Origin: Talaromyces rugulosus
Taxonomy: Eukaryota; Ascomycota; Eurotiomycetes; Eurotiales; Trichocomaceae
Assembly (NCBI RefSeq): GCF_013368755.1
Contig: NC_049566.1
Location: forward strand, 4,402,001-4,466,000
Reading direction: 5' to 3'
DNA length: 64,000 nucleotides
Every line of letters begins with the position of its first letter. The first letter of the stretch is position 1. The translations under genes were made by a program, and so were the position numbers. Under the pieces are notes generated by a model. The model did not search any database and was not told the DNA's origin. It saw only the letters and a program-made list of their open reading frames with translations. Below are positions 4,066 to 54,029 of this stretch, one piece after another.

Positions 4066-5182
4066 TCACCGTCGTCGGTGCCTGGTCCAAGCGCGTACAA
4101 AGTCGGCTTTTTCTTTGACTCCCAACCCAACTCTTTTCACTCTGCCCAGACGCGCTAGCGATTCGCCCACATGGTCCAGAAGAGCCTTTTCTTCCTTATT
4201 TAGATCGGTGGTCGTCGTTTGAAGGAGACTCGCCGAGGATGAATTGTCCTCGTCATCGTCGAAGAAGCCGTTGCTCGTGCTGTGAGCTTCCGACGGGGAT
4301 TTACTGCTCGTACTCACATACTCAGCAACACGCACTCTGATGAAATGCGTAGGCTTGCTGAGAAGATTCCACAGGAAACTGGTATAACAACCCGGCACTG
4401 GCGTGGTTACGTCGGGCTCAGTGTAGCGCAGACTAATCGGGTAGATATTGGTGCGCGGGGGCGCCGAAGCAAGCGATCTGCTTAGCGGTAGGATACCACG
4501 GCCATTGGTTGTGGTGCACTCGGCGAAGACGGCGATAGGGCGGGAAGGGTATTTCTCAAGCAACTGGGACAAGTCGACTAGACGTGTTCCGGCCGGAGGG
4601 GTGTTTTCGGGTGCTGCGAAAGAGCGTAGGATGGCGCCGAGAAGCGACAGCTGCTCTACCTTGCGTGTATCCGGATACGAGGCAGTGAAAATCGGGTCGA
4701 AGATGGCCGCTAGGTAGACTGCATCGATGGGCGATGTGAAGGAAGAGGCGATGATAGATTTTCCCGCGGGGAGACGCGATCGTTGACTTGCGAGATGTCT
4801 ATTATAGTCCGGTTAAGAATATCCACAAATATTTTGATTTCAAGAAACCAACCCTCTTTTGACACCATCGACCTGCAAATCAATCCACCATAGACTCGGC
4901 ACGCCGAGAATACACCATAGCGATGCTTTTTTGCCCAGCGAACCGATGGGGAGAAACTGCAAGACGAGGAAATAGCTCAAGCACACAAATATAAGTAGCG
5001 GCAGCCGGAAGCAAAACAAGAAGACGTGCAACGGTAGCATGTAGCCCGAGGGCTGCGGAGGGACCGGGAAAAAGGGCGCAATGCCGGAACCTGTTGATTT
5101 CGTTTGTTAGATTGTTTTCTACTGTGAAGAGAGGGAGAAAAAAAGACTTACCTCGGTCCCGGAACTGGGAAAACTTTTCCAT
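4066..5182 (-). CDS. Loa1/Vps66-like lysophosphatidic acid acyltransferase (PlsC superfamily)
   Basis: Three exons on the minus strand (5182-5152, 5090-4853, 4798-4066) with introns of 61 and 54 bp. The N-terminus MEKFSQFRDRG is followed by a hydrophobic pair of segments (about residues 30-75), then the acyltransferase blocks: SSFTSPIDAVYLAAIFDP where the canonical motif is NHxxxxD, AECTTTNGRGIL for the usual FPEGTR block, and NIYPISLRY. The tail is Ser/Asp/Glu-rich and basic at the end. Family knowledge: yeast Loa1 acts on lipid droplets/ER and makes phosphatidic acid. The usual motif-I histidine position is occupied by Phe, which I believe is a feature of this subfamily rather than damage. 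Length, about 333 residues, fits. Confidence 0.82.
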
Positions 5183-7130
5183 GATCAAGAATGACCAGCA
5201 CAACTCTGCAAAATGCGAGTGGGCCTTTGCGCCATGTACGCGTGGTGTTCGGTGAGGTCGAGAGTATAGAGTCAGGAGACGATCATGCTTTTAATATAGA
5301 AAATTTGTGGTTCAGCTGCAATTTGGATCCCTGACACGTTCCATCGGCTTTTGGGCACACTAGCTCGCGATTCAACCAAACGAACCACTTAGCGCGCCAA
5401 GTCAGCAGGCCACAAAGCGGACAACACCTGCAGATAAGCAGATAAGCAGGATAACCAAAGAATCAAATGTTCACTGTAGCCCCACGGGCAGGGGTGCAGC
5501 AGAAGATTGTGCTTGACGCGAGGTTTGAGTTTCCAGGGAAAGCTTTGCATGTGAATGCCAAGACTGATGCCTTGGTGCCTTGACACGTGACTGATTTTCG
5601 ATGTCAACCTTCACTAACCGAACCAGTCCTAGTTCGTCACTAGGCAGCTTGTCCTGCTGAGGAGTGGGAATCGCTGATCCCCCTTTATTATTTAGAATTA
5701 TACAAGTAGATCAGATCACTAAGAAAATTGTGAGGAGTATTCTTGGAAGCAGGCGAACCATCGGCTATTAGGGCCCGATATAAGGGTCAATTGGATAACC
5801 AAACTAATCACTAAAGGTCATAGTGCTGAAGATGAGAAAGTGAAAAGATTCATCAGGGGTGAGATTAATCAGGATTTAAAATCTAGTTAGGGATGGATTG
5901 TGGTAGATCCCAACACTGGTAGTCTCCATTAAAGGAACAGGAAGTGGTTACAGAGCTGGATACAAAGCAAAAGTAATGGATGGACATTAGAACAGGTTTT
6001 AGTTTCTTAATCTTTCCTAATATGAAACTTGTAAGTCCTACAAGGATCTATGCAAAGCGATATTATAATCTTAGTTCTACAGCTCTAGAACTTTAAAAGC
6101 GTGGATGGCAATTATGTCTAGAGTTATTATATGACAGTAGAAATAAAGATTATAGTATATAAAGCTAGCCTAATTAGGGTTAGTACCTGAGGCTTGTTAT
6201 AAGTATGGTAAAAATTCTGTCGGTTAGCGAGTGCTGTGATTACTATTGGCAAGATAATTAATGCTTGGTTCCTCAATTGACATATTCAGGTCATTTAATC
6301 TTTAATTATTTTTCAGGTGAGTTTTGTTCGCTACTGATATTTGCGTCTTGGGGGCCGTCTCAGCATCCTCGGTGGATAGCGGAGTTAGACGGCCTAACTC
6401 CGGCTCAGTATGCTTCTGTCCCACTTGTGGGTGCAAGTTTTATTTTATTGGTAAGGAGTTCTCTTCGTGGTCACTTTTTACACCGATGACGCGCCGTTTC
6501 AGGGTACGAGCGTGCAGCAGCGCTTGTCTCAGTAGTCAACCTTGCGTGCGTCTGCCAAAGCACGCTGTGATCGGCCTTGATGAAACGAAGTTTGGTGTAC
6601 CCTCAGACGATCAAAGGGAGTGGAAGATCTTTCCTTCGCATGGGAGCTGTGCTTAAAAAAAAAGTCTATTCTTGAAAGAAAATGCCCTGAAACGACCGAA
6701 AGGCCCTGTCAAAGCTTCGGGAATCAGGGAATTTGTGTAATAAGCGATTATTTGGCAACGATTTGCAAGGAGATATGAGTACAAGATAGGTGTCCATTTG
6801 ATTACTCAAAAGGAAGCATGTTATTCTAATACATGACCTTTCTATCAGTTTATATACTCATTTTCTCAATAAATTGATCCAATCGGATACCGACGCATCA
6901 TCCCATGTTATGTTATTTCAGGAGGATCACCGATTTTCCACGTCGATTAGGTGATCAGTAGTTTGCATAACTCAGCATTGCTTAGTAGTTAACTAGTAGT
7001 CAAGCTCCAAGACCACCCGCAGCAACGATTGTATCCGCGATCCTCCATGCGCTGCTAATAAGTCAAAAAAAATTCAAATTCTGCGGGCTATTCCCAACAC
7101 CAACTGCACCAATTTCATGATGCGTGTGCC
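5183..7130. other. Long intergenic region, AT-rich in the middle
   Basis: About 1.9 kb without a supportable gene. 5690-6260 is AT-rich with many stops in all frames and may be eroded repeat DNA. A 110-codon open frame at 6324-6656 has no recognisable features and unlikely composition (Cys/Ser/Phe-rich). Confidence 0.5.
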
Positions 7131-7205
7131 ATTGTAGCTCTTGAACTTCTGTGCCTGACAGTTGCAAATGCGGGAATTGGGCCCTCGCCCTCCAAAACTC
7201 CTCGA

Positions 7206-8992
7206 GTGGATACTAAGAATGGGACACTTGAAGGAATTTACCTTCCCGAATTCAGTGAAGACGTGTTCCTAGGTGTTCCATTTGCATCTCCTCCGATTGG
7301 GGATTTGAGATTGAGACGTCCCGTATCTTACCAGAATTCTTGGAATGGCATCCGCGATGCCACTAGAAGGGGAGCGAGTTGTCCGGGATATGGGCCGTTG
7401 GATGCTGGGTTGACCTTTGGCGAAGGTATGTTAACAATAGAGAATAGGAGAGGGACTCGTTTGCACCTCGCGTTCAATAAACACTGATAGAAACCATAGA
7501 TTGCTTGACACTTGATATTGTTAGACCTGCTGGAGTGCGAGAGAACGCCGGTTTACCTGTATTCGTTTGGATATATGGCGGCAATTTTGTCGCAGGCTCA
7601 AGTGCTGATCCGCGATACAACACATCGTACATTGTCAATGCCTCTGTTATTATTGACAAACCCATCATTGCGGTATCTATCAACTACCGGCTGGGGGGGG
7701 TGGGGATTCTTAGCGTCAAAACAGGTTGTCAATGCTGGCGAATCGAACATTGGCCGGTTTGATCAAAGGCTCGCGCTCGAGTGGATTCAAGAGAATATTC
7801 GTCATTTTGGAGGAGACCCGTCCAAAGTGACTATTGCTGGAGAGAGTGCCGGTGGTTTTAGTGTTGGGTACCACCTAACGGGCTTTGATGGTAACAATAA
7901 CGGCCTTTTCCGTGCAGCCATCATGGAAAGCGGGAATTCCATGGGTCCTGCAGGTAAGCCAACTCGAAATACGATCTATCTGAGGTCGCTAACGGCACTG
8001 CCAGTTTACTCCCTTTCCCAATTGAATACCACCTATCAGCCGATGTACGACAATGTGACTGAGACAGTTGGGTGCTCAAAAGCCACCGACTCCCTGGATT
8101 GTCTTCGACGAGTGCCCTATGAAACTCTTTATAACGCCTTATCACCATTTGCCATCTATCCCATCGTGGACGGAAGCTTTTTGACACGTTTGCCATCCGA
8201 GTCTTTTGAAAAGGGTTTCATCGCAGATTTCGCTATTCTAGCAGGAACGAACACGGATGAATGCACTGCTTTTGCGCCTCGAGGTACTCTAAATACCGAT
8301 AGTGATATTCACGCCTACATTTCCGAAATTAACTATGGTCTTCAAAATGCCACCGTGGCGAAGGTTATGGATTTATATCCCGATGACCCCATTCAAGGAT
8401 GCCCCTTTGGTACTGGGGGGAAGCGATTTGCTTCTCAAGGCTATCAGTTCAAGCGGGGAGCCGCTCTCGTTGCAGACGAAATCTTCCAAGCCGGGAGAAG
8501 GTTCACGGCCAAAACCTACGCTTCGCGACCACAGTCGGAAAGAAAGCCAGTTTATAGCTTTCGATTTGACCAGGCTCCATGGAATGGGATAGAACTTATC
8601 ATGGCTACAGTGGCGCCTGTTTTTGTTACCCACTTCTCAGAGGTCTGAATACATATTTCGAAATTTCAACGGAATCTGTGTCTAATCAGTCTATTTAGAT
8701 ATGCTATGTGTTTAACATTGATCCTGGTGCCAGCACGAATAACACGAATTGGATAGGCCCTCACCCAGAGTATTATGATCTTTCCAAGCTGATGTCGCGC
8801 GCTTGGATCTCGTTCGTTCATGATCTGAATCCTAACAATCATGGCATCGCGGACATACCATATTGGCCGGACTATTCAGTCTTCCCGGGAAATTTTGTAT
8901 TTCGGATTAATGATAGCGTTGTTGAGGTTGATGACTGGAGGCTGGAACAGCTGGAGTACTGGGGCCAAATCTGGGGGCAGCTGAGCACATAA
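7206..8992 (+). pseudogene. Type-B carboxylesterase (cholinesterase-like), broken
   Basis: The body is unmistakable: DVFLGVPFASPP, EDCLTLDI after a 74-bp intron (7426-7499), IYGGNF, the nucleophile GESAGG, the acid in TNTDEC, and the His in THFSEICYVF. Further introns: 7954-8004 (51 bp, length divisible by 3 and frame-open if retained) and 8643-8698. Two lesions are visible. First, eight Gs at 7693-7700 where the conserved NYRLGGWGFLASK block needs seven, a +1 frameshift. Second, no in-frame ATG precedes the conserved start: signal-peptide-like residues (LELLCLTVANA) lie just upstream in frame, but the ATGATG at about 7118 is in another frame and hits TAG after six codons. Either a sequencing error plus an unseen 5' exon, or a genuine pseudogene. 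Secreted ester hydrolysis would be the ancestral role. Confidence 0.82.
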
Positions 8993-49250: not shown

Positions 49251-50234
49251 GTGAGCAATACTGTATCACGTTTCAGTTCACTACACCTGGATACAGAGCC
49301 AGACAGTTATGTCCATTCTGGATATACAGTGGGCTGGATTTGTGCCCTACCTATTGAAATGGCAGCCTGCACCGCGATGCTGGACAAAGAACACCAATCT
49401 CTAGCAACCAGACCACAGGACAGTAACAGCTACTCTCTGGGAAATATTGGAGATCACAATGTCGTTATAACTTGCCTACCCTCGGGAATATACGGGACTA
49501 CTTCAGCAGCGACGGTGGCAATGGATATGACGCACTCTTTCCCCTCTATCCGGTACCGATTCATGGTGGGAATCGGAGGAGGTATCCCATCAAAGAAGAA
49601 TGACATTCGTCTGGGAGATATAGTCCTGTGCAAACCAACGGATACAATTAGCGGCGTATTCCAATATCATATGAGGAAAAAGTTGCAGGGATCTCGCTCC
49701 CTATCTACTGGGGCATTAAACAAGCCACCACATACACTTTTAACAGCGATAGCAATCCTCCAATCACAACACTTGGTGAACGAGAGCAAAATATCCAGCT
49801 ACCTGAGTTCTATGCACACTAAAATAGGCGGTAAATGGTGTAATTTTAAACGACCACATCCTGCTACCGATCGTCTGTTCAAGTCCGAGTTCTTTCATGT
49901 TGAACCAAACGACGACACATGTGCGAAATGCGCGGCGGCTGGCGAGCAAACTCGTCCCGTCCGAGACACCGATCAACCACAAATTTACTATGGCCGGATT
50001 GCGTCAGGAAATAGTCTAGTTCGTGAAAGTTGCATACGTGACCGTTTGAGTGAACAAGGATTCCTCGCCTTTGAAATGGAATCCGCCGGACTCATGGATC
50101 GCTTTCCATGTTTGGTGATTCGGGGAATCTGTGATTATTCGGATTCCCACAAGAACAAGGGATGGCAAGGGTATGCAGCCGCTACAGCGGCGGCCTATGC
50201 AAAGGAGATATTGTCTGTAATTCCTGCGGGCTAA
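49251..50234 (+). CDS. PNP/UDP-phosphorylase-superfamily domain protein (NLR effector-domain type), start unclear
   Basis: A nearly complete phosphorylase domain: YTVGWICALPIEMAA, VVITCLPSGIYGTTSA, the phosphate-loop-like MVGIGGGIPS, DIRLGDIVLC, FEMESAGLMD and VIRGICDYSDSHKN, ending YAKEILSVIPAG and a stop. This is the domain found at the N-terminus of fungal NLR-like receptors, where NACHT or NB-ARC and repeats normally follow; here the protein ends. No in-frame ATG precedes the domain between the TAG at about 49180 and PIEMAA, so the start at 49251 is a GTG placeholder; either a 5' exon is missing or the gene has lost its start. Residues 185-220 include a Cys pair (CAKCAAAG) common in this group. 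About 327 residues as delimited. Confidence 0.72.
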   Translation: MSNTVSRFSSLHLDTEPDSYVHSGYTVGWICALPIEMAACTAMLDKEHQSLATRPQDSNSYSLGNIGDHNVVITCLPSGIYGTTSAATVAMDMTHSFPSIRYRFMVGIGGGIPSKKNDIRLGDIVLCKPTDTISGVFQYHMRKKLQGSRSLSTGALNKPPHTLLTAIAILQSQHLVNESKISSYLSSMHTKIGGKWCNFKRPHPATDRLFKSEFFHVEPNDDTCAKCAAAGEQTRPVRDTDQPQIYYGRIASGNSLVRESCIRDRLSEQGFLAFEMESAGLMDRFPCLVIRGICDYSDSHKNKGWQGYAAATAAAYAKEILSVIPAG

Positions 50235-50606: not shown

Positions 50607-51356
50607 CTAGGCAAGTTCATCGATACCTGCTCATTTGTTAGACACCCAACAAAACTTTTTCCGAAGACTACAATTACCAATCTCTTCTTCAGAGCCAATG
50701 CGCTTAGCGAGGTCTCCGACACCACCTATGCCTATTAGCTGTATTACTATCAAAAGAATGCCTTCACAAACCGGATTCTTCCTTGCGCTTTGCAAAATCG
50801 CCAACGTCACCTGTACCTATTAGACATGCTATAACGAGCACAAGAATAGCCGAACGAACCGGATTTCTCTTTGCGTTTCGCAAGGAAGCCGACATCATCT
50901 ATTTCTATTAGTTTTGGTATCACAAGGACCGGAATACATGAACCAACCAGTTTCTTCGTCACGCTTCGCAAGATCGCCTACGTCATCTGTGACTGTTATT
51001 TGTGCTATTACGGGAAGAAGGGCAGTCCAACAAACCGGTGTCTTGTTTACGCTTTGCAAGGTCCGCCACGTGTTCTATATCTTTTAGTTGTACGATAACG
51101 AAGATGAGAACGCATTCACAAACCGGTTTCCTCTTTGCGTTTCGCGAGATCGTCAATACCGACTATGCCGTCGACATCAGTGGAGAACTTGACGAGGGTG
51201 TCGCGCTTGGCCACTTCAGCAGAGTCTAAGAATGGGTTAGAAAGACAATAGTATAAAAATATGGAAATTGAGTCACTTACCACGCTTGACGTCGGCGGGC
51301 AGTGCTGCTGACAGTACTGCCAGAGCAGCAAGAAGTACAGCTGGCTTGAACATCAT
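50607..51356 (-). CDS. Secreted KR-processed repeat-peptide precursor with one repeat per exon
   Basis: Eight exons on the minus strand (51356-51281, 51225-51124, 51074-51036, 50986-50948, 50898-50860, 50810-50772, 50725-50678, 50626-50607) join to exactly 402 nt, 133 residues. A signal peptide (MMFKPAVLLAALAVLSAALP) is followed by ADVKR, then repeats such as HVADLAKRKQDT, DDVGDLAKRDEET, DVGFLAKRKEKS and DVGDFAKRKEES, each with a Lys-Arg kexin site. Exons 3-6 are 39 nt each and exon 7 is 48 nt; all internal junctions are phase 1. Exon starts are spaced 88, 88, 88 and 85 bp, and the introns between modules resemble one another (GTTTGTG / GTTCGTTC donors, CTAAT branch-like sites about 10 nt before TAG/CAG). 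Kex2/Kex1 cleavage would release acidic peptides of about 11-13 residues. There is no Cys, Tyr or Trp, so it is not a Tyr-cyclised dikaritin-type precursor. The stop TAG (50609-50607) replaces the Lys of a final LAKR; ten further in-frame codons follow. Confidence 0.8.
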
Positions 51357-53006
51357 TTTGAATGGTTGTAGTTAATATTGATAATTTGGTATTTGGTTGC
51401 GAATTTCTCTGGCTGAACAGCTTCGAAGTTGAAAGAAAAATGATGAAAAGGTCGGGAATGACAGATTTATTTATTTATGACACAGAAAATAGTGACTCAT
51501 CCGGCGGAGCCGTGATGATCAGATGATGATGCCATTCATTCCGGACCGACACTCAAAATTCAGCTAGAAAGGAAAAAATGGCGACATGAAGTTTATGCTC
51601 CAAAGTTCAAAGCTTGTTTCCCACACTACGACAGGAAATGATGATGTTTTCCTTCACTCGACATGCATTATTCGATGCTAACAGCTAATACAATATGCTA
51701 AGTTAAGTTCGGCCGGAGATGGTATAGACGAGATGTCCGTGGAGACATCGCTGAAAGTTTTGGAGGATTCTATATCTAGTGGGCTTTGGTTCTTTGTGTC
51801 TGGAGGCTGGGGCCACCTGTAGCTATTATAGGGCCGGACCCAACTTTTCCTTTCAACGTCGTTATTTAACATTTCCTTTGACCATCTAAAGTGCGGATTT
51901 TCTTGGTTGATATCATATGAGTTCGGGGTTGCGTTTCCCGGATAAATCCCGATTTGCCCTATCTCCAAACGGCACAAAAATCCTTTGCCTGGTATTATAC
52001 CCCAACATTTTGTTCAATAACACAAATTCTCTCCCCTAAAAATAAATCGCCTTGTGGGCTTTCTCGACATTTAAGACTCGTGTCGCCTGGCAGTTGCCTG
52101 GCTTTAACGGGAAACAAAAGGTTGGAGCTTATGGGATTGCAGTTCTTGAACTGCGAGGCGTTGTCCCTCTAGGGTCGAGAGGGTAATCCAACCAATTATT
52201 GACTTGCTTGCACTCTCAAAGAAGAATCTACCCTAATTCTTTATGCTTTGTGAGAAAGTGCTCTCCCATTCCATTCCATCACTTTCTGATCGTTCTGGGC
52301 TACCCTAAGATATACAAAGAAATCACCTGAGATGTGTATGTTCCAATGAAATATGGAATAGTACCGTACTTATAGTTTATTATAGGAATTAAATCTGATG
52401 TCAACTTAATCATAGTCATCAATCAAGTATGTAATGGTTTAATGACTATCAATACTCTAAACTGCCAAATGTTAATCGATGCCAATGAACTCAACAACCT
52501 AATTGACTGAGAGAGCTACTATAAAAGTAATAACCTATGCTAGCCAAGGTAATATTATAATTAGAGCTAAGGATAAAACCCACAGCAATATATTAAGCGT
52601 TGGGGGAACGTTTTGGGTTTCTATCTCTCTTGATCAGACAGGATTGGCTCCTGCCTAATATTACTGTTAAAATACTCGCCTATTGGTGTAGATCTGTAAC
52701 ACCAACTATTGTGTTTAATGGACTATACATAATACCAGACTAATATTTATCCTTCTATTTATTTAGTATTTGCACTCCCTATATGTACTATTGAGAGGTA
52801 TATTAGGACAAATATGGTGGGACGACTAGATTTCCTAAGAGGAATGTATGCTACTCAGTGATGATAGATAAAAAGCCTAGGACTATATCATATTGTGGCG
52901 ATATTCGGTCTTGGGAGCCTTGAAGAAAGAGAAGCCCATGCGGACAGGTCCCAACGAAGGAATCCTTCGTTGGTAATAACGAGGATGTCTACCTTGTTGG
53001 GCTACT
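51357..53006. other. Long intergenic region
   Basis: The first ~250 bp are the promoter of the repeat-peptide gene, including TTTATTTATT. 52320-52900 is AT-rich. No gene is supported; open frames at 51678-51977 (minus) and 51954-52172 (plus) lack coding character. Confidence 0.5.
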
Positions 53007-54029
53007 CTACGCGCCCACTGCTTGCAAGGATTTGACAGTATCTCTAACGCAATCCTCTATTGACCGCCACTCAACTCCCAAGGCGTCCTGTACTCTGGAA
53101 TTGTCGACCTTATAAACCCCTCCGTCCGGGTAGTCACCACCCGGCGTTTCTGCTGTTGGCAAGACTCCTTTGTACTCCGGATACTGCTTCCTTACTATTT
53201 CAGCGATCTCTCTATTGTTAAAGCAGCCTGCAACAACAAAAAACCTCTTGTTCGAAGCTTCAGCCTTCTCAATAGCGAGAACGTGGCATAACGCAAGGTC
53301 GCGAACGTCAACCCAGGTGAATGTGCCGTTGGGAGGGATTTTGTCCTTTGCTTTGCCTTGAATCATGTCGCGAATTATTTGGTTGCTAGTATTGAGATTA
53401 TCCAAGCTGTTCAAATGGTGCACAACCGGCCCAATGACTTGCGGTGGGCACATAGTCGCGATCGTGAAGTTCGGCTTTTCCTGTTCCACAAAGTCCCAAG
53501 CAGCTCTCTCAGCAAACGTTTTACTGGCCCTGTAGCCATTGGGTACACTCTCAATTGCTTGCTCCCTTGTTATTGGGTTCCAGTCCTCCTCGCTGTAGGT
53601 GTGCTCTGGCCATGAACCCTTGTAGGGATTTACTATCGAAGAAAACGAAGAAGTGATCACGACTCGCTTGACTGAAGGCGCATTTTTCACTATCGATTGT
53701 AGAAGACCTGTTGTACCTTTTATGGCCGGGTCCAAAAGATCCTTCTTGACATCCGTGACTTGAAAGTGAAACGGGCTTGCAGTGTGAATGACTGCCTGGA
53801 ATGGTGGGTCGGAGACGACAGCTTTCGCAAACGCGCCCTCTCGGGCGATGTCCTCTACAATTGCGAAGTCCAACTGATCACTTGACATGTCAGGGTAGGC
53901 TGCTTTGATTTTCTCGCCCTTCTCATACGAGCGGACTGTGGTAACAACACTATGACCCCGTTTGAGTAAAATATCGAGAACATGGGCGGCAATGAAGCCA
54001 GAGCCTCCAGTCAGGAGGACGCGGGTCAT
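53007..54029 (-). CDS. Gre2-like NAD(P)H-dependent aldehyde/ketone reductase (extended SDR)
   Basis: Single exon, 340 residues. The N-terminal cofactor motif TGGSGFIAAHV, VIHTASPFHF, catalytic Ser region VVITSSFSSI and the YRASK (YxxxK) motif are all present, followed by TWVDVRDLALCHV typical of the dihydroflavonol-reductase/Gre2/ketoreductase group. These cytosolic enzymes reduce ketones and aldehydes with NADPH, or oxidise the alcohol. Downstream is open DNA; upstream (54194-54204) lies one copy of the TTTCGCCGAAA palindrome shared with the genes to the right, 165 bp from its ATG. It appears intact and could interconvert the alcohol and ketone that feed the neighbouring Baeyer-Villiger enzymes. 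Confidence 0.92.
   Translation of the reverse strand: MTRVLLTGGSGFIAAHVLDILLKRGHSVVTTVRSYEKGEKIKAAYPDMSSDQLDFAIVEDIAREGAFAKAVVSDPPFQAVIHTASPFHFQVTDVKKDLLDPAIKGTTGLLQSIVKNAPSVKRVVITSSFSSIVNPYKGSWPEHTYSEEDWNPITREQAIESVPNGYRASKTFAERAAWDFVEQEKPNFTIATMCPPQVIGPVVHHLNSLDNLNTSNQIIRDMIQGKAKDKIPPNGTFTWVDVRDLALCHVLAIEKAEASNKRFFVVAGCFNNREIAEIVRKQYPEYKGVLPTAETPGGDYPDGGVYKVDNSRVQDALGVEWRSIEDCVRDTVKSLQAVGA

Follow-up and report, generated by a model that had tools for sequence, protein, structure and literature searches.

How can a run of peptide repeats that cycles through all three reading frames encode a single protein, and how might such a run have grown? The question is raised by a locus in a 64,000-nucleotide stretch of Talaromyces rugulosus DNA (hereafter the window), in which six LAKR or FAKR repeats lie along the DNA in frames 0, 1, 2, 0, 1, and 2. 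Because the frames cycle in this way, the repeats cannot all belong to one protein unless the DNA between them is taken out. We examined the locus computationally, starting from a preliminary description that had interpreted it as a precursor gene built from tandem exon-plus-intron modules.

Structure of the repeat gene

The repeat period can be measured in the DNA itself. Over the 491 nt of the array, self-identity reached 0.571 when the lag was 88 nt and 0.578 when it was 176 nt, against a background mean of 0.253 (standard deviation, 0.047) for lags of 20 to 199 nt. When 1,590 overlapping 400-nt stretches of the window were compared, the 11 best lag identities all came from stretches that overlap the array. 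Tandem Repeats Finder returned no entry between 49500 and 52500; we read this as a sign that the copies are too diverged for that program. An 88-position model trained on five modules necessarily finds them again (71.6 to 78.1 bits), and it also matches exon 7 (12.9 bits; E value of 0.0048). Its score on the last exon is at chance level (3.3 bits; E value of 4.8).

The gene that can be read from the sequence occupies positions 51356 to 50607 of the minus strand and consists of eight exons (76, 102, 39, 39, 39, 39, 48, and 20 nt) and seven GT-AG introns (55, 49, 49, 49, 49, 46, and 51 nt). We infer that all seven introns are spliced, which gives a predicted frame of 133 residues with every junction in phase 1. 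Exon 1 (51281..51356) carries the start codon, an apparent signal peptide, judged by eye, and the first KR. It is followed by intron 1 (51226..51280), which has a GTAAGT donor, CTAAC, and TAG. Exon 2 (51124..51225) encodes DSAEVAKR, a long spacer peptide, and the first LAKR repeat. The 39-nt modules are exons 3 (51036..51074), 4 (50948..50986), 5 (50860..50898), and 6 (50772..50810), and they alternate with the 49-nt introns 2 (51075..51123; the first of the related introns), 3 (50987..51035), 4 (50899..50947), and 5 (50811..50859). Intron 6 (50726..50771) belongs to the same family with a 3-nt gap. Exon 7 (50678..50725), to which the model match above is weak, is a module extended by 9 nt downstream of KR, and intron 7 (50627..50677) shows no visible kinship to introns 2 to 6. 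Finally, exon 8 (50607..50626) holds the last half-repeat, GIDELA, and a stop codon in the place that the Lys of KR occupies in the other repeats.

The outer coordinates and the exon starts at 51074, 50986, 50898, 50810, and 50725 given in the preliminary description were reproduced exactly, as were its seven phase 1 GT-AG introns. Its general module of a 39-nt exon and an intron of about 49 nt holds for exons 3 to 6 and introns 2 to 5, with intron 6 shorter at 46 nt; the statement that module lengths are multiples of 3 is correct for the exons but not for the 88-nt genomic unit. A CTAAY motif lies near the acceptor in five of the seven introns, the other two having CTAAA (intron 2) and AAATAAC (intron 3). 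Each of introns 2 to 6 also contains a second AG 6 nt upstream of the acceptor, where it overlaps the branch-like site. Splicing at this AG would add two in-frame codons but is improbable, given how near the branch point lies.

The nearest recognizable genes are an NAD-dependent epimerase/reductase gene upstream on the same strand (53007-54029) and a convergent phosphorylase-superfamily gene downstream (49251-50234), both identified with Pfam; a heme-containing dehydratase, a PhyH oxygenase, and an amino acid permease are encoded farther away. No recognized peptide-modifying family was found among the 19 other open reading frames of the window scanned with Pfam, a scan in which most genes of the window were represented by separate exons. 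The intergenic stretch at 52000-53000, upstream of the gene, has a GC content of 0.38 to 0.39, compared with 0.43 to 0.50 around it.

Predicted product and its relation to known precursors

The predicted precursor begins with a putative signal peptide, recognized by eye from Lys4, a hydrophobic stretch, and ALPA (MMFKPAVLLAALAVLSAALPA). As previously described, it lacks Tyr, Trp, and Cys; eight KR sites were counted, one per repeat except in the last. The KR pair is identical in every repeat, and the residues next to it vary. After trimming, the first predicted products are DSAEVA and a 20-residue spacer peptide, followed by the repeat peptides KEETEHVADLA, KQDTDDVGDLA, DEETDDVGFLA, KEKSGDVGDFA, KEESGGVGDLA, and IGSEEEIGIDELA. 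Among the nine fragments that cutting at KR would give, five 11-residue fragments share one pattern.

The relation of peptide to exon differs from the one first proposed. Exons had been taken to end in Lys-Arg and to carry one peptide each; instead, KR sits at codons 8 and 9 of 13, and in each module exon it is preceded by the C-terminal end of a peptide and followed by the N-terminal end of its successor. Every predicted 11-residue peptide therefore straddles an intron: in KEETEHVADLA, for example, KEET is encoded at the 3' end of one exon and EHVADLA at the beginning of the exon after it.

In the pathway that we propose, the introns would be spliced out and the product would enter the secretory pathway, where Kex2 would cut after each KR and a carboxypeptidase would then trim the KR. 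This would release acidic peptides, mostly of 11 residues, such as KEETEHVADLA and KQDTDDVGDLA, whose coding sequences are each interrupted by an intron. In the last repeat, which lacks KR, the stop directly follows the core (IDELA-stop), and the upstream cut alone would suffice. Kexin and serine carboxypeptidases are expected in a filamentous fungus. The kexin P_proprotein domain, the one kexin domain examined, has a single match in the genome (60.9 bits, in an 854-codon open frame), and the serine carboxypeptidase family has 19, counted exon by exon. The likeliest role of the peptides, at a guess, is as an extracellular signal or in an interaction.

Database searches placed the precursor in no known family. 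It has no sequence match in Pfam, NCBIfam, or the PDB, and Rfam gave nothing at gathering thresholds. Among about 5.8 billion proteins, fungal entries included, no homologue was found at an E value of ≤1 (5,484 candidates), nor one at an E value of ≤10 for residues 22 to 133 (89 candidates). Short, fast-evolving, spliced genes may escape such searches. Within the genome, DNA and protein searches for paralogues returned this locus only. As DNA, the 761-bp locus matched nothing but itself genome-wide in a comparison that diverged introns could escape.

The predicted product resembles the KEPs surveyed by Le Marquer (2019) and Umemura (2020), with which it shares an apparent signal peptide, at least three similar KR-separated repeats, and a fungal origin. 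The KEP threshold is at least three similar fragments (PMC6339444, excerpt), and five were found here. The KEP-like secreted precursor of the preliminary description is well supported by the sequence, with a signal peptide judged by eye. The strings "intron," "exon," and "splic" do not occur in the main texts of the two surveys. In Agaricomycetes, however, "intron-less" KEP sequences were amplified from cDNA, according to the available part of PMC9769878, which implies introns in some of those genes; the mere presence of introns is thus no novelty. The likeliest placement is a gene that works like a KEP and has the similar repeats by which KEPs are defined but departs from them in gene structure. 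KEP peptides are unmodified, unlike RiPPs, as described in an excerpt of a Trichoderma RiPP mining study (PMC7099791).

Two other classes of fungal repeat precursor were compared. Dikaritin-type precursors, which are UstYa associated, also contain repeats. They have UstYa nearby, whereas there is none in this window, and the arrays near UstYa in this genome are single frame, whereas this gene is split. The dikaritin RiPP cross-link requires a core Tyr, and the 133 residues here include none. The alpha-pheromone motif has Trp and Cys, both of which are missing from the present repeats. The MF_alpha model had no genome match at an E value of ≤1, a result that says little for this organism since the model is short; the Ste2 receptor is present in the genome. 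Ascomycete alpha-pheromone precursors are otherwise comparable, being secreted, often repeated, and cut by Kex2 into short peptides (PMC6339444, excerpt), and a Paracoccidioides pheromone gene has one 79-bp intron (PMC3464258, excerpt).

One-repeat-per-exon growth by coduplicated introns was not known to the preliminary description from earlier work. In the honeybee apidaecin multipeptide precursor, however, there is one peptide unit per exon (PMC3415428, in part), so the principle is not new, although apidaecin is an animal immune peptide unrelated in sequence to this gene. Likewise, the available text on nasonin-6 of the wasp Nasonia (PMC2853521) states that "each NLD is encoded by a single exon" and reports that phase 1 introns join these domains, an arrangement that it reads as exon duplication. 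Nasonin-6 differs in being an animal protein of defensin-like domains without protease processing sites. For fungi, no precursor with one repeat module per exon was found in a literature search that covered few subscription journals and so carries little weight.

Origin of the repeat modules

We consider it highly probable, from the sequence, that this is a KEP precursor whose array expanded through tandem duplications of a unit of 88 nt, composed of a 39-nt exon and a 49-nt intron. To compare the introns, we trimmed away the hexamer at the donor and the final 16 nt and used dinucleotide shuffles as controls. The summed alignment score of the interiors of introns 2 to 6 was 35, against a mean of −20.6 (standard deviation, 7.4) for the shuffles, none of 1,000 of which reached it. 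Taken singly, the pairs varied: for five of the 10, no more than 7 of 500 shuffles scored as well, and for two the counts were 21 and 31; the remaining three (64, 80, and 91 of 500) were unremarkable. Introns 2 to 6 match one another at 25 to 33 of 46 to 49 positions, compared with 15 to 21 of 46 to 49 for intron 7 against them. The proposed kinship of the introns therefore holds for introns 2 to 6 as a set, but three of their pairs do not stand out singly, and for intron 7 it is not visible. The donors point the same way: position 3 is T in all five module introns, compared with 8 of 48 candidate introns and 2 of the 17 of these with the form GTNNGT. These candidates were found mechanically in the window and in genome stretches, and the set includes false ones; among them the module donors are uncommon, with GTTTGT and GTTGGT occurring once each and GTTCGT not at all.

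The exons show a different pattern of change. Over the 10 pairs of the five modules, differences at codon positions 1, 2, and 3 numbered 34, 22, and 75 of 130 each, and the third-position count was reached by 1 of 20,000 column shuffles. This excess fits selection on the exons at the protein level. Divergence was 0.58 at third codon positions and 0.48 in intron interiors, and this similarity fits an equal age of exon and intron. Because the introns are homologous and the exon differences concentrate at third positions, exon and intron appear to have been copied together under coding constraint. Growth by coduplicated exon-intron modules, as first proposed, is thus well supported. Exon and intron distances between modules are uncorrelated (Spearman coefficient of −0.14 over 10 pairs), so the stepwise history of duplication cannot be read from them; gene conversion or saturation could lie behind this. 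With every module border in one phase, a complete peptide may be gained or lost by unequal crossing over, whether in an exon or in an intron, and the frame would stay intact. The gene would be a concrete case of a fungal multipeptide precursor that alters copy number without damage to the frame, with the intron as spacer.

The same arrangement might have arisen if introner-like elements, which are known in Dothideomycetes (PMC4457414, excerpt), had invaded an uninterrupted repeat array singly, each at the same site of the repeat. The hits of one neighboring gene lean toward that class: of 120 listed among 3,544, the best is an unnamed entry at 89% identity, and the best named ones are from Oleoguttula, Elasticomyces, Salinomyces, Cladosporium, and Hortaea (74 to 75%), with Exophiala at 71%. 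Several features make such an invasion very unlikely. A model of the module introns matched only those five in 270,324 bases of the 35.8-Mb genome, plus one further partial match (E value of 4.6). Introns 2 to 5 are not near-identical (27 to 33 of 49 ungapped matches) but about as diverged as third codon positions, and none of the introns folds markedly better than its shuffles (z scores of −0.50 to 1.03). The same exon length and insertion site would also have to recur several times by coincidence. For comparison, intron duplications without introners, within-gene tandem ones included, account for <1% of single intron gains in Zymoseptoria tritici, according to an excerpt of the same paper (PMC4457414).

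Two further alternatives concern what the locus does rather than how it grew. The repeats in shifting frames could be remnants of a continuous array in a decaying pseudogene, with the intron-like stretches produced by drift; three-frame translations do show the unspliced frame to be broken, and no homologue backs a function. Decay is nevertheless hard to credit at a locus where all seven splice junctions are in phase, eight KR sites are kept, the third-position excess is strong, all 64 combinations of skipped exons stay open, and donor, branch-like site, and acceptor recur at nearly fixed spacing in the intervening DNA. It is also improbable, though somewhat less so than either of these, that the product is a secreted and spliced but uncut repeat protein of the wall or matrix, with LAKR serving a structural role. 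The absence of Pfam, NCBIfam, and PDB matches would suit such a protein. The invariance of KR beside varying neighbors argues for cutting, as does the terminal repeat, which stops just before KR in the manner of four other arrays in the genome (L011, L012, L018, and L022).

Possible exon skipping and other repeat arrays in the genome

All six internal exons are symmetric, and each of the 64 skip combinations leaves one open frame with the same stop, in agreement with the earlier claim that any module can be skipped without a frameshift. Skipping would also create hybrid peptides, since KR falls in the middle of the exons and the internal exons are all of phase 1-1: loss of one exon would remove one peptide and fuse the halves of two others. 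Enumeration gave 29 distinct Kex2 fragments over the 64 forms, many of them two-repeat hybrids; the full-length form gives eight Kex2 products after the signal segment. Retaining a single intron would give one of seven different stops, the earliest after residue 27 and the latest after residue 142. Intron retention is commoner in fungi than exon skipping. Variation in peptide copy number by splicing is possible in principle, but we regard it as rather unlikely that the architecture is used in this way, with regulated skipping altering peptide number and joining N-terminal to C-terminal halves to give up to 29 products. With this gene, one could ask whether exon skipping contributes to peptide variety in fungi.

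A search of the genome for the LA-KR-plus-donor pattern at module spacing gave nine places, compared with one in a reversed control: five at this gene and four single matches elsewhere. One of the single matches, in L030, was read and contains no repeat array. We also scanned for similar KR-containing octamers in all frames of 20 stretches around UstYa matches (part of the 43 in the genome), the window, and L007 to L009. The only frame-cycling array in these stretches is the present gene; the KR arrays in L011, L012 (minus strand), L018, and L022 each lie wholly in one frame, and their last copies stop just before KR. Genome mining that considers single frames or predicted proteins may overlook precursors whose repeats are divided among tiny exons. 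Two other sets picked up by the scan were discounted: one lies on the strand opposite the L012 array, and the other, in L026, is a run of KR dipeptides.

The 43 UstYa matches were counted exon by exon and so represent fewer genes; they suggest that the genome contains many RiPP-type clusters. The nearest match (G000:C6:4391163-4391985) lies about 61 kb from the gene and has a repeat array of its own. In L018 (7641-8244; G000:C6, about 58 kb from the gene), many DELDGDLYNY cores are separated by KR or KNKR, and this array near UstYa matches is probably a dikaritin-type RiPP precursor. Four more arrays lie near UstYa matches. L011 has tandem SELYPAPDLGRIKVDDI-type repeats on the plus strand (6694-7216), followed by KR, QR, or ER, and L012 has a signal-peptide-like start on the minus strand (~4527-4845) and ACAAVGGGSAAAACKR repeats with two Cys each, with several UstYa matches near. 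In L017 (~7980-8410, plus strand), six Tyr-rich DARSIYTYGVTEYEDKEKEEAKV-type repeats without KR lie in one frame, and a signal-peptide-like start is found ahead of them in another. L022 has six YFIGADKR repeats on the minus strand (~6058-6268) and a last copy that ends in YFIGAE and is followed by a stop.
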